From Thioalkalivibrio sp. XN279 (GTDB lineage Bacteria; Pseudomonadota; Gammaproteobacteria; Steroidobacterales; XN24): a stretch of 64,000 nucleotides of DNA. The stretch spans positions 62,001 to 126,000 of the forward strand of contig NZ_JAANBD010000029.1 of NCBI RefSeq assembly GCF_011089885.1, in the 5' to 3' direction. Made by a program: the position numbers and the translations under genes. Of this stretch, positions 16,643 through 21,756 are shown in pieces. Below the pieces are notes generated by a model, which saw only the letters and a list, made by a program, of their open reading frames with translations, was not told where the DNA came from and did not search any database. Numbering within the stretch: position 1 is the stretch's first letter; each line of letters opens with the position of its first letter.

Positions 16643-18352
16643 ATGCATTTGCTCGACCGCATCGGCATGGCTGCACGCATCGTGCGCTGGCGCCTCACCT
16701 GGGAGAGGCGGGACCTGGACTATCGTCCGCCGGGTGCGCTGGATGCACGCTTCATGACGGCGCGCGAAGCTGCGGCCTTGATCCCGGACGGCGCCTGCTG
16801 CCTGTCCACGGGCATGGCGGGCAATGCGCGCTGCTCCACCTTGCTGTGGGCGATCCGCGAACGCTTCGAGCAGGAAGGCCATCCGCGCGAGCTCACCTGG
16901 ATGGCCGTGGGCGGCCAGGGCGGCCGCGGGCGCGCCCCCGGCACGGTCGAGGAACTGGGGCAGCCGGGCCTGGTGACGCGTTTCATTTCCGGCCACGTCG
17001 AAACGACCAAGTCGATGCTGGCGCTGGCCGACGCCGGCCAGCTCGAGATGCATGTCCTTCCGCAAGGGGAGATGTGCTTCGCTCTCGAAGCCCAGGGCGA
17101 GGGCGGCGACGCGGTGCTGAGCCGCACCGGCGTGGGCACCGTGCTGGACCCGCGCTGCGGTCGCGGCTCACCCGTGACGCCCGACGCGGGGCTGCAGCTC
17201 ATCGAGGCCGCGGGCGAGATGCTGCGCTACCGGCTGCCGCGGCTCGATGTCGCGGTGATTGCCGCACCCTGGGCGGACGCCCGGGGCAACCTCTATTTCC
17301 GCGACGCCGCGACCATCACGGAAATCCGCGAGGCGGCACGCGCGGCCCGCGCCAATGGCGGGCGCGTGCTGGCCTCCGTGGCAGGGGTGATTCCGGCCGA
17401 CCCGGAGCGCATCAGCCTGCCCGCCGCGCTGGTGGACGCCATTGCCGTCAACCCGCTGCAGGAACAGACCATCCTCTCGCCACAACGCGACTGCTGGCGG
17501 CTGTTCACGCCGGGCGGCGACGGCGACGACGCGGCCGCGATCGAGAAACTGCGCTTCATCAACCGCTTTCTCCGGCTGACCCCGGTGCGCGGCCCGGTCG
17601 AGTGCGCCCTCGCCCGGCTCGGCGCCCACGTGTTCGCCCGCACGGCCGCGCCGCCGGCCACGGTCAACATAGGAGTCGGCTTCGGCGAAGAAGTCTGCCG
17701 CGAGCTGTACCAGAGCCCGCTGCGTCCGGACCTGACCTTTACCACCGAGACCGGCGTCTACGGCGGCCTCCCCGCCCCGGGCATCTACTTCGGCGCTGCG
17801 GTGCACCCGGAACGCATGGAGAGCTCGGCCTGGATGTTCCGGCACTACCAGGAGCACCTCGACGTCACCGTGCTGGGCTTCCTCGAGGTCGACGCCACGG
17901 GCAACGTCAATGTCTCACGGCGCGGGCCGCGCTTTGCCGACTACGTCGGCCCGGGCGGGCTGCCGAGCATCACGGCCAGCGCACGCACCTGCATTTTCGT
18001 CGGCACCTTCATGCAGGGCGCAAAATGGCGCATCGAGAACGAGCGCATGGTGCTGGAGGCGCCCGGCAAGGCGAAGCTGGTCGACACGGTCTCCGAAGTG
18101 ACGTTCAACGGCCGCGAAGCGCTGCAGGCGGGCAAGCAGGTCTGGTATGTCACCACGGTCGGCGCCTTCCGCCTCACGGACGGCGGGCTGGTACTGGAGA
18201 TGGTGATGCCCGGACTCGATATCGAGCGGGACATCCGGCCCCACTGCGGGCTGCGTTTCGCCCTGCCGGACGGAGGTCCCGCGACCGCGCCGGCCGCCGT
18301 GCTGCGGGATGCTGGCTACGTCCTCGCCTGGGGCGAGGGAATTCGAGCTTGA
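16643..18352 (+). CDS. Family I acyl-CoA:acetate CoA-transferase-like protein (fused alpha-beta)
   Basis: A 569-residue protein with both halves of a family I CoA-transferase. The alpha-like half begins at [28 protein letters not shown]; the beta-like half contains [12 protein letters not shown] and the catalytic-glutamate motif [15 protein letters not shown] with E369. These enzymes move CoA between carboxylates through a glutamyl-CoA intermediate. The first 30 residues are a basic amphipathic extension not usual for the family. The gene is followed 10 bp later by a ThDP enzyme, suggesting that the CoA ester formed or consumed is linked to a decarboxylation or lyase step. Substrate unknown. 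Confidence 0.8.
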
Positions 18353-18362
18353 GGGGGTCTGC

Positions 18363-20090
18363 ATGAACGGCGGGGCGAGAATTGCCAGGGTGCTGCACGA
18401 GCGCGGCGTGAGCGAGATCTTCACGCTCTGCGGCGGACACATTTCTCCCATCCTCGTGGAAGCCAAGCGCATCGGCATCCGCATCACCGACGTGCGCGAC
18501 GAGGCCACGGCGGTGTTCGCGGCGGACGCACATGCGCGGCTCACCGGGATTCCCGGCGTGGCCGCCGTCACCGCCGGACCCGGGCTGACCAACACCATCA
18601 CGCCGCTGAAGAACGCCCAGCTGGCGCAATCGCCGGTGCTGGTGCTCGGCGGCGCCACCGCCACGGCGTTGAAGAAGCGCGGCGCCCTGCAGGACATCGA
18701 CCAGATGCCGCTGATGGCGCCGCACGTGAAGTACGCGCGTGCCGTGCGACGCGTGCGCGATCTCGCACCGGCCGTGGTCGAGGCACTGGAAGCGGCGGCC
18801 GCGGGCGTGCCCGGCCCGACCTTCGTCGAGTGCCCGGTCGATCTCCTCTACGACGAGGAGATCATTCGCGGCTGGTACGCCGACAGCATGCCGCGCGGCA
18901 ACGGCCTCGCCGACAAGGCGATCCGCGCCTACCTCGGCTGGCATACGGATCGCCTGTTCTCCGGCGGCGACAAGATGCCGCGCCCGGCCGAGTTGCCGGA
19001 ACCCGTGATGCCCCGGCCGGAAAGCATGCGCGACATAGCGGCGCGCGTGGCCAGGGCGGAGCGGCCCGTGATGGTGTGCGGCAGCCAGGCCATGAACCGC
19101 CCGCAGGAGGCGGAACAGGTGCGTGCCGCCATCGAGCAGCTCGGCATCCCGGTGTACCTCTCCGGCATGGCACGCGGCCTGCTGGGCAAGGAACACCCGC
19201 TGCTGTTCCGGCATCGCCGCCGCGACGCCATCAAGGGCGCCGACCTGGTGATCCTGGCCGGCGTGCCATGCGACTTCAGGCTGGACTACGGCAAGCAGAT
19301 CCGCCGCAGCGCGCGGCTGGTCTCGTTCAACCTCAGCCGGCGCGACCTGCGCCTGAATCGCAAGCCTGACGACGGCCTGCTGGCCGACCCCGGCATCTGC
19401 CTGCGCCAACTGGCGGAAGCGATGGACGGGCCCGCGCCGCCGCGCGCGGCCTGGCTGGCCGAGCTGGGCGAGCGTGACGCCGCACGCGAGGCCGATATCG
19501 ACGCCAAGGCCGCGGTCTCGGGCGCGGGCGTGAACCCCCTGCGGCTGTGCCGCGAGATCGATGCCGTGCTGCCCGACGACAGCGTGCTGGTGGCCGACGG
19601 CGGCGACTTCGTCGGCACCGCCTCCTACACCGTGCGCCCGCGCGGCCCGCTGCGCTGGCTGGACCCGGGCGCCTTCGGCACGCTCGGCGTCGGTGGCGGC
19701 TTCGCCATCGGCGCGGCGCGCGCGCGTCCCGGCAGCGAGATCTGGATCCTCTATGGCGACGGCTCGCTGGGCTACAGCCTGATCGAGTTCGACAGCTATG
19801 TGCGTCACGGCATGGCGCCCATCGCCATCATCGGCAACGATGCCTGCTGGGCGCAGATCGCGCGCGAACAGGTGAAGATGCTCCAGGACGACGTGGGCGT
19901 GCGCCTCGCGCGCACCGACTACCACCGCGCCGCTGAGGGGCTGGGCGGCGCGGGCCTGGTGATCACCCGCGACGAGGACGTGGCGCCGACGCTGGCGCGG
20001 GCGCGCGAGCTCGCGGCTGCAGGGACGCCGGTGCTGGTGAACGTGCACCTCGCCGAGACGGACTTCCGCGAAGGCTCCCTGTCGATCTAG
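18363..20090 (+). CDS. Thiamine diphosphate-dependent enzyme (acetolactate synthase / 2-hydroxyacyl-CoA lyase-like)
   Basis: A 575-residue ThDP enzyme of the acetohydroxyacid-synthase superfamily. E47 in [13 protein letters not shown] is the cofactor-activating glutamate; [25 protein letters not shown] follows. The ThDP/Mg site is GDGSLGYS (G465-D466-G467) ending at N492 in AIIGND. The start [15 protein letters not shown] is chosen because AGGGGGT lies a few bases upstream, just after the CoA-transferase stop. Relatives include oxalyl-CoA decarboxylase and 2-hydroxyacyl-CoA lyase; the CoA-transferase neighbour favours a CoA-ester substrate, by inference only. Confidence 0.8.
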
Positions 20091-20108
20091 TGGACCGCGG
20101 CGGCGGCC

Positions 20109-20162
20109 CGTCATGGGCTCCCCTCGCTTAGAAGTCTTTATGCGCTCGGTGAGCCCATGACG
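20109..20162 (+). repeat. Hairpin copy A with conserved loop core
   Basis: Perfect 12-bp arms CGTCATGGGCTC (20109-20120) and its complement (20151-20162) enclose a 30-nt loop. Loop positions 20123-20148 match the loop of copy B (inverse strand) at 25 of 26 bases, including CTCGCTTAGAA and TCTTTATGCGCTCG. Complementarity continues imperfectly outside the arms. Confidence 0.75.
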
Positions 20163-20295
20163 ACCCGCCCCGCTGCTACGTCGGTGATGGTGGCGCCCGA
20201 TGAGTCCATGACGGCCCGCTGCCGCGTAGATGCCGTTGGCGCCCGATCAGCCCGTGATTGACCGCCTCCGTTGCCGCGTCGGTGACAGCGACGAC
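20150..20295 (+). repeat. Three imperfect tandem repeats of 46-51 nt
   Basis: Units start at about 20150, 20201 and 20247. Each begins with a form of GAGCCCATGAC followed by a CCCGC-rich stretch; units 1 and 2 both end in GGCGCCCGA. The first unit begins inside the right arm of hairpin A, so the tandem array seems to have grown from the hairpin edge. Confidence 0.6.
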
Positions 20296-20323
20296 CTGCG
20301 GCGTATGAACCTGCTGGGAGGCA

Positions 20324-20399
20324 GCGGCCGGAACATGCCAGGGTCACACGAGCGCATAAAGATTTCTAAGCGAGTGGGACCCTGGCATGGTCCGGCCGC
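20324..20399 (-). repeat. Hairpin copy B, inverted relative to copy A
   Basis: Arms 20334-20345 (CATGCCAGGGTC) and 20378-20389 pair over 12 bp. After one mismatch (20333/20390) the pairing continues through 20324-20332/20391-20399, making a stem of about 21 pairs. The loop core at 20349-20374 read on the minus strand matches copy A at 25 of 26 positions, although the stem sequence differs. Confidence 0.75.
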
Positions 20400-20454
20400 G
20401 GACTCAGCGCGGCGGAACCCCGTCATGGTCCGGCCGCGGACCCAGCGCGACGGA
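20386..20454 (+). repeat. 31-nt direct repeat pair, 38-nt period
   Basis: Positions 20386-20416 and 20424-20454 match at 29 of 31 bases (start CATGGTCCGGCCGCGGAC). The first copy overlaps the right arm of hairpin B. Each copy contains the self-complementary core GGTCCGGCCGCGGACC. Confidence 0.7.
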
Positions 20455-20460
20455 AAGCTG

Positions 20461-21756
20461 TCAGGGGATCCCGGGCAGGTCGCTCAGCAACTCGCGGAAC
20501 GCCGCGAACTCGGGTCCGATCTCGACGAAGTGCCGCGGCCGCGCCATCAGCTCGGCCAGCGCGGGGGGCATCGGCACCTCGGCGCCGACCAGCGGTTCCA
20601 CCACGTCCTCGAACTTCGCCGGGTGCGCGGTCGCCACCACGACCCACGGTCGCTGTGCGGCCTCCGCCGGGAGCAATTCCCAGGCCCGGACCGCTGTCGC
20701 CGTGTGCGGGCACCAGGTGCGCCCGTAGCGGCCGGGACCGGTGCGGATCGCGGCGCGGATCTCTGCGTCGCTCACGCGCACCGCGCTGGCCTCGCCCCGC
20801 GCCGCCTCGGGCGAGCCGGCCATGTGCAGCAGCCGTTCCATGTTGCTGGGGTTACCCACGTCCATGGCGGTCGCCAGCGTCTGCACGGTGGCGCGGGGCG
20901 CCCACTCGCCGCCGGCGAAAAAATCGCCCACGGTCTCGTTGGCGTTGGTGGCGAGCACGACCGGGCCGATCGGCAGGCCGCAACGCCGCGCCCACAGGCA
21001 GGCGAGCGAGTTGCCCAGGTTGCCGCTCGGGATGATGAAACCGGGCGCCGTGCCCGTCTCGCGCCACACCGTGAGTCCCGCCCAGGCGTAATAGGCCGCC
21101 TGCGGCAGCAGGCGGCCGATGCTGATGCTGTTGGCCGAGGTCAGCCCCGCACGCGCCCGCAGGGCTGTATCGCCGAAAGCCTCTTTCACCATGCGCTGGC
21201 AATCGTCGAAGTCCCCGTCCACGCGCAGGCTGAGCACGTTCTCACCCCAGCAGGTGAGCTGCGCCTCCTGGCGGTCGGAGACGCGGCCGCGAGGATAGAG
21301 TAGGACCACGCGGAATCCGGGTCTGCCGCTGAAGGCGGCGGCCACGGCGCCGCCGGTGTCCCCCGAGGTGGCCACCAGCACGGTGCGCGGCCGGTCCCCG
21401 GCGAGACGGGCCAGGCAGGCGGCGAGGAAACGCGCGCCGACGTCCTTGAAGGCTGCGGTGGGGCCGTGAAACAGCTCCAGCACGCGGAAACCGCCCGCCT
21501 CGGTCAGCGGCACCGGGAAATCCAGGGCCTCGGCGCACACCGCATCCAGCTCTGTCGCCAGGGCGTCGCCGGCCACGAACGGCGCCAGCAGGCGGGGCGC
21601 CGTGTCGGCGAGATGAGCACCGGGCGGGAAACGATCGGGCGGCAGCAAGGGGAACTGCTCCGGCACGTACAGGCCGCCGTCCGGCGCCAGCCCGGCGAGC
21701 ATGGCGGCGCCGGCCCCCACGGGCGGCGCCACGCCGCGCGTGCTGAGGTATTGCAT
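20461..21756 (-). CDS. thrC: Threonine synthase
   Basis: A 431-residue PLP enzyme converting O-phosphohomoserine to threonine. The N-terminal MQYLSTRG and the PLP-lysine motif FHGPTAAFKDVGARF (K104) are diagnostic; ATSGDTGGAVAAAF is the phosphate-binding loop. The start overlaps the thrA stop by one base (TGATG), so the two are translated together. No homoserine kinase gene (thrB) separates them, unlike the thrABC arrangement of enteric bacteria. Confidence 0.95.
   Translation of the reverse strand: MQYLSTRGVAPPVGAGAAMLAGLAPDGGLYVPEQFPLLPPDRFPPGAHLADTAPRLLAPFVAGDALATELDAVCAEALDFPVPLTEAGGFRVLELFHGPTAAFKDVGARFLAACLARLAGDRPRTVLVATSGDTGGAVAAAFSGRPGFRVVLLYPRGRVSDRQEAQLTCWGENVLSLRVDGDFDDCQRMVKEAFGDTALRARAGLTSANSISIGRLLPQAAYYAWAGLTVWRETGTAPGFIIPSGNLGNSLACLWARRCGLPIGPVVLATNANETVGDFFAGGEWAPRATVQTLATAMDVGNPSNMERLLHMAGSPEAARGEASAVRVSDAEIRAAIRTGPGRYGRTWCPHTATAVRAWELLPAEAAQRPWVVVATAHPAKFEDVVEPLVGAEVPMPPALAELMARPRHFVEIGPEFAAFRELLSDLPGIP

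Follow-up and report, generated by a model that had tools for sequence, protein, structure and literature searches.

Two hairpins in mirror orientation lie in the spacer between two convergent genes of Thioalkalivibrio sp. XN279, and they share their loop while their stems differ in sequence. What kind of element keeps its loop and changes its stem, and which strand is it that has to fold? The hairpins were noticed in the window, i.e. the whole stretch of 64,000 nucleotides that was analysed. The upstream gene encodes a thiamine-pyrophosphate (TPP) dependent enzyme (18309-20090, + strand; Pfam PF02776, PF00205, PF02775), and its end at 20090 touches the left hairpin. The convergent gene encodes threonine synthase (20461-21756, - strand; Pfam PF14821, PF00291) and ends 54 nt from the right hairpin (locus L102). 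The left hairpin is modelled at 20089-20181 on the + strand (model R1, E 5.4e-16, 78.8 bits); it has its 26-nt core at 20123-20148 (+, pattern match) and perfect 12-bp arms at 20109-20120 and 20151-20162, read from the sequence. The right hairpin is modelled at 20316-20407 on the - strand (R1, E 1.1e-18, 89.6 bits), with its core at 20349-20374 (-, pattern match) and perfect 12-bp arms at 20334-20345 and 20378-20389, also read from the sequence. A linker at 20182-20315, delimited by the two R1 matches, separates them.

The original prediction, of two opposite hairpins that share a core and have perfect arms of different sequence, is borne out: the cores are identical at 25 of 26 positions and match twice in the window as compared to a mean of 0.00 in 100 shuffles, and the arms are perfect and differ between the hairpins. 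The extent of the stem was underestimated, since pairing continues imperfectly past the 12 bp to 26 modelled pairs in each hairpin. Fold z-scores against shuffles range from -5.9 to -9.6 for the four strands folded.

The window's core variant, searched within 3 mismatches, occurs at three places in the window's genome (G000). A slightly wider core pattern occurs at 12 places in G000 and at 5 and 6 in two congeners; a search of 94 other genomes of the order gave no match. Altogether the core pattern matches 6 of 396 genomes of the order, where a reversed control pattern gave no hits; in 369 genomes of the class only the window's own genome matches. Model R1 (92 positions, 26 pairs) found many more copies than the core pattern. 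In 57 loci of three congeneric genomes, fetched around element matches and thus chosen for carrying elements, its 139 matches reduce to 100 places, once 39 overlapping duplicates, mostly on the opposite strand, are dropped. These copies split into 50 in G000 and 37 and 13 in the congeners G001 and G002. Three G001 contigs (those with L130, L131 and L105) end inside a hairpin copy, so copy numbers are minimum values. From 84 matches a second model, R2, was built; under stricter filters it had hits in 4 of 117 genomes. At E up to 0.01, weak matches counted, it gave 10, 25 and 16 matches in G077, G269 and G305, further element genomes from two other families. One weak R1 hit was obtained in G026 (E 0.0148), and a single core hit in G065 with 2 mismatches was dropped, its flanks being unpaired by eye. 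Rfam gave no match in the window at the gathering cut-off; at permissive thresholds again nothing exceeded the cut-off, with six sub-threshold hits across four loci (E up to 5). Viral contigs, plasmids and phages gave no match, and a literature search by title and abstract found no account of this hairpin element. The window hairpins are one unit of a dispersed, extragenic foldback repeat family.

Among the 100 copies there are 34 close pairs, and 32 copies stand alone as singles. In 32 of the 34 close pairs the hairpins are inverted, with 56-258 nt between them. Convergent genes surround 26/34 pairs and 15/32 singles; divergent genes surround 0/34 pairs and 1/32 singles, some singles having no neighbour on one side (gene neighbours in the congener loci were called with a home-made codon model). 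Among spacers of at least 50 bp in the element loci, 39 of 58 with an element are convergent as compared to 5 of 138 without. For G077, G269 and G305, cruder ORF calls, at least one of them wrong (L146), give both neighbours for 28 of 38 copies, 15 convergent and none divergent.

It had been proposed that the stems covary, an argument to be tested on further copies. Many such copies were found, their stems differ, and the argument holds. In alignment A1 (23 copies) 24 of 26 pairs have changed on both sides, and the covariation score is 0.600 as compared to 0.165 in shuffled alignments and 0.07-0.15 with the helix slid. For 22 of 27 G000 loci there is an element-bearing G001 locus with at least 2 common reciprocal-best neighbour genes. 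Hand-pairing of 33 orthologous hairpins yields 858 pair positions: 536 are unchanged Watson-Crick pairs, 142 have changed on both sides and are still Watson-Crick, 91 have changed on one side only and so gained or lost a mismatch, 26 are gaps and 63 are other mismatch cases. Stem identity is 0.74 between orthologues, 0.55 within a genome and 0.53 for other cross-genome pairs. This shows that stem sequence is free while pairing is kept, and that stems follow the locus.

Mismatches tell the two strands apart. We write F for the complement of the core strand, and count mismatch classes as read on the core strand. In the window the left core reads on +, so F, which the family keeps foldable, is - there, and the right core reads on -, so F is + there; every mismatch in the modelled stems of these two hairpins has C on the core strand. 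Stem cells of the 100 copies hold 2222 Watson-Crick pairs, 117 A.C and 11 G.T. After near-duplicates are thinned out at 0.8 identity, which leaves 49 copies, the counts are A.C 48 vs G.T 10, C.T 55 vs G.A 2 and C.C 32 vs G.G 7. The best count comes from one-sided changes between orthologous copies, with A.C 45 vs G.T 3 (p 1.3e-10), next to C.C 25 vs G.G 5 and C.T 11 vs G.A 1. Strand-unbiased mutation predicts equal numbers of A.C and G.T. A.C on the core strand is G.T on F, so that a wobble-paired helix is kept on F, and the core strand may do without one. Folding energies agree: with RNA as with DNA parameters, F is the more stable strand in 94 of 97 copies (3 truncated copies omitted). In G269 and G305 the bias repeats (33 vs 10, p 6e-4) and F is more stable in 27/27 copies; in G077 the bias is weak (6 vs 2, p 0.29) and F is more stable in 8/11. 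For these three genomes 5 of 43 rows were removed as duplicates. An older local-alignment count, with over-extended arms, gave A.C vs G.T of 9 vs 0 in G077 (4 copies), 15 vs 6 in G269 (6) and 4 vs 3 in G305 (3). Only one DNA strand, F, is thus shown to be kept foldable in the family.

The loop had been taken for a conserved stretch selected in single-stranded form. The data support selection on a folded single strand, and the mismatch bias even tells which strand it is; the picture of a bare, conserved loop needs correction, as its ends form a non-canonical helix motif and it varies among copies and genomes. The loop ends TC...TC on the core strand are a tandem G.A/A.G on F beside the stem, reading CGAG/CGAG in the window. 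In RNA, sheared tandem G.A pairs occur within 5'-CGAG-3'. The outer G.A motif is present in 94/100 loops of the three congeneric genomes, 25/27 of G269/G305 and 10/11 of G077; in three of the nine loops without it, GGGC/GCCC, which forms ordinary pairs, takes its place. The pair just inside is, over the three groups, G-C in 93 loops, A.C (G.T on F) in 23, C.C in 5, A-T in 5, C-G in 2 and G.T in 1. The F-strand tip AGANUU occurs in 86/100, 18/27 and 10/11 copies, and the longer core-strand GAANTCTT in 62/100, 18/27 and 10/11. The loop is conserved though not fixed: TCTGATG loops are found in 17/37 G001 copies as compared to 2/50 G000 copies. Core identity is highest between orthologues (0.765), followed by 0.744 and 0.752 within genomes and 0.706 for other cross-genome pairs. 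Loops follow the locus less than stems do, as would be expected if loops undergo gene conversion or adapt to a trans-acting factor. Genome-specificity of the loop is only partial, core identity being highest between orthologues, and this counts against the explanation preferred below.

A fold specific to one strand, whose tip is partly conserved, calls for a partner that recognises a single strand. We tentatively favour, from the sequence comparisons, an RNA-level 3'-end element, in which the F-strand hairpin would be read by a putative trans-acting factor. The selected object would be RNA, in which G.U is tolerated, and the factor would bind F-strand RNA by reading its tip and its G.A helix. 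When transcription leaves one of two convergent genes, the RNA would contain the near hairpin in its weaker-strand form, followed by the far hairpin in its F form. The far F hairpin would be reached just before the transcript runs antisense into the neighbour gene, and may mark, process or protect the 3' end of the transcript there. RNA is favoured because of the position behind genes and the conservation in place. Several findings count against it. Single hairpins in unidirectional spacers have F sense or antisense to the upstream gene, the strand bias in G077 is weak, and tolerance of G.T fits single-stranded DNA (ssDNA) equally well. For the window's own two hairpins RNA folding energy favours neither strand (F vs core strand, -55.1 vs -56.2 and -59.2 vs -58.9 kcal/mol).

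It is also quite possible that the family is a non-autonomous mobile element with an ssDNA step, similar to REPINs or terminal inverted repeats (TIRs). F would be the substrate of an HUH/Y1-type or other transposase and the inverted pair the replicating unit. Gain and loss, the paired layout and the likeness to REPINs favour ssDNA. Many units at different loci are homologous through the linker, over up to ~400 bp and in both orientations, and presence is patchy, as the 6 of 396 genomes of the order illustrate. With the gene ends of 12 G000 loci as queries, 18 matches were obtained in G002. In five orthologous G002 spacers, where the gene ends lie close together, there is no R2 match at E up to 5; the flanks of these element-free sites are too diverged to place insertion boundaries or a target site duplication. 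At a further G002 site (L210) half a hairpin is followed by other DNA (by eye). From these sites we infer that an element is gained or lost as a block. In G002 there are other genes between copies. The locus orthologous to the window (L123, G002:C17, 3995-6916) has two units instead of the window's single one, and they flank an SBF-family transporter gene (PF01758) and smaller ORFs, by eye probably arsC and arsR.

The layout resembles that of published repeats. According to two papers, REP, BIME and REPIN sequences are extragenic and dispersed, often form close inverted pairs and lie behind genes in convergent or unidirectional spacers, and compensatory changes are reported for REPIN hairpins (PMC3733652, PMC3116915). 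Marks of REPs and REPINs are a GTAG (or CGTC) tag at the hairpin foot, a palindrome of 20-40 bp and a repeat-flanked RAYT gene with a Y1_Tnp domain (PMC3733652, PMC3116915). The TIR repeats of TIRYT transposases are inverted, some of them self-complementary, occur as dimers and form repeat families (PMC3733652). The present family is likewise dispersed, extragenic and arranged in inverted doublets, and shares with the TIR repeats self-complementary inverted repeats in dimers. Unlike REPs and REPINs it has no GTAG/CGTC tag in the 15 nt beyond the model ends or in 8 flanking R2 model positions. Its hairpin is ~92 nt long, with 55/57 aligned positions paired in one G077 copy; it keeps the loop and leaves the stem free, and its mismatches are strand-biased. 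Unlike the TIR repeats it has no Y1 gene that we found between or beside copies. Y1_Tnp gave 0 matches in G000, the genome with most copies. In the five other element genomes Y1 genes are present and were not seen linked: among the matches listed, none lies within ~35 kb of a copy on the same contig, where G269 and G305 consist of hundreds of contigs and linkage could be missed. G001 and G002 have four Y1 genes, none of them with an R2 match at E 1 or better beside it, and three genomes of the same family with Y1 carry no element. Searches for Y1 and integron integrase in the element genomes found no recombinase or transposase linked to copies. Retention at orthologous loci also argues against mobility, and copying of units would not give the nearly unrelated stems of G077.

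The arms of the eleven G077 copies have a mean identity in register of 0.36 as compared to 0.29 when shuffled (maximum of 300 shuffles 0.33), whereas for the window's genus arm identity is 0.52, and for G269/G305 it is 0.62. Still, in the four copies examined the arms pair almost perfectly (33/33, 34/35, 39/42 and 55/57 aligned positions). At L146 the palindrome is bounded by two TAG stop codons, one of a zinc-peptidase gene and the other of a HemN-like gene convergent with it; two ORF callings disagree on the left ORF and Pfam supports the stop-to-stop one. At L143 an uninterrupted palindrome of 50 positions spans TAA to TAA of convergent genes. It is the inner part of 71 true pairs in four blocks (79 aligned positions including mismatches), and only these inner 50 are uninterrupted. 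The genes at both stop-to-stop palindromes are confirmed by Pfam. An overlap of palindromes with coding ends was not borne out, and the palindrome figure for L152 (+) is left out, as it merges two hairpins. Because the arms are nearly unrelated and near-perfectly paired, it is conceivable, though doubtful, that the ~26-nt core is a pivot for intrastrand template switching, with F folding via the tandem G.A and adjoining DNA being copied into a matching arm. If so, this would be a sequence that builds palindromes out of local DNA. Strong selection on structure may also cause the G077 palindromes. That gradual compensatory change gave these stems is hard, not impossible, to conceive; the other route would be an inverted duplication of local DNA about the core, on which the pivot reading builds.

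An intrinsic bidirectional terminator or a plain mRNA-stabilising hairpin between convergent genes would suit the location behind stop codons in convergent spacers, and the two G077 palindromes that span stop codon to stop codon. It is improbable, since there is no T-tract past either model end (T fraction 0.03-0.37 per column over 15 nt on both strands) and the R2 consensus flanks are not T-rich, which also argues against a standard terminator within the favoured RNA-level element. Moreover, such a hairpin does not require the conserved loop, the tandem G.A or the strand bias.

Integron attC sites keep structure over sequence, fold as the bottom strand behind genes and carry AAC/GTT core boxes. 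The present hairpins are like them in structure kept over sequence, in a position behind genes and in the strand that folds, since F, seen from the gene that precedes the hairpin, is the bottom strand. An attC-like recombination site with cassettes between sites would also suit L128 (G002:C34, 3884-6903), orthologous to L087/L106, where three strong hairpins of one orientation lie around a HigB-like toxin gene with its HTH/M78 partner and a ccdAB pair. Two of the three have a weak opposite partner 33-34 nt away (R2), which makes the array less cassette-like, as it also resembles inverted pairs. Unlike attC, the family is arranged in inverted pairs, and RYYYAAC/GTTRRRY boxes were not seen by eye in alignment A1. 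Integron integrase is above cut-off in G001 and G002, with no R2 match beside these two genes; of its 4 matches in G000, none reaches the curated cut-off. We regard this relationship as highly improbable. Equally so is a double-stranded DNA site or cruciform, bound by gyrase or a nucleoid protein, which would suit palindromes in convergent spacers, since both strands would then fold and mismatch classes should balance, instead of 45 vs 3.

The family's single-stranded form and its folding strand can be read from sequence alone, and ~150 model matches in six genomes are available for testing. The family allows selection at the level of RNA and at the level of ssDNA to be compared for bacterial dispersed palindromes, a question that REP-type repeats also raise.

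Some units deviate from the common layout. In L081 (4592-4683) the core is inverted with respect to a homologous stem, so that both cores of the unit point one way, as recombination between the arms would do. The units of L119, L122, L079 and L103 have a truncated arm of one hairpin subtype directly before the start of another copy, as if copies were nested. In L107 (G001:C28, 4005-11083) two opposite hairpins are separated by 7 kb of DNA, in which ORFs with RHS-like repeats were recognised by eye. The window itself has degenerate repeats with a spacing of 46-52 bp in the linker region (20162-20296) and a 38-bp direct repeat (20376-20451, 87% alike), which starts within the right hairpin and extends beyond it.
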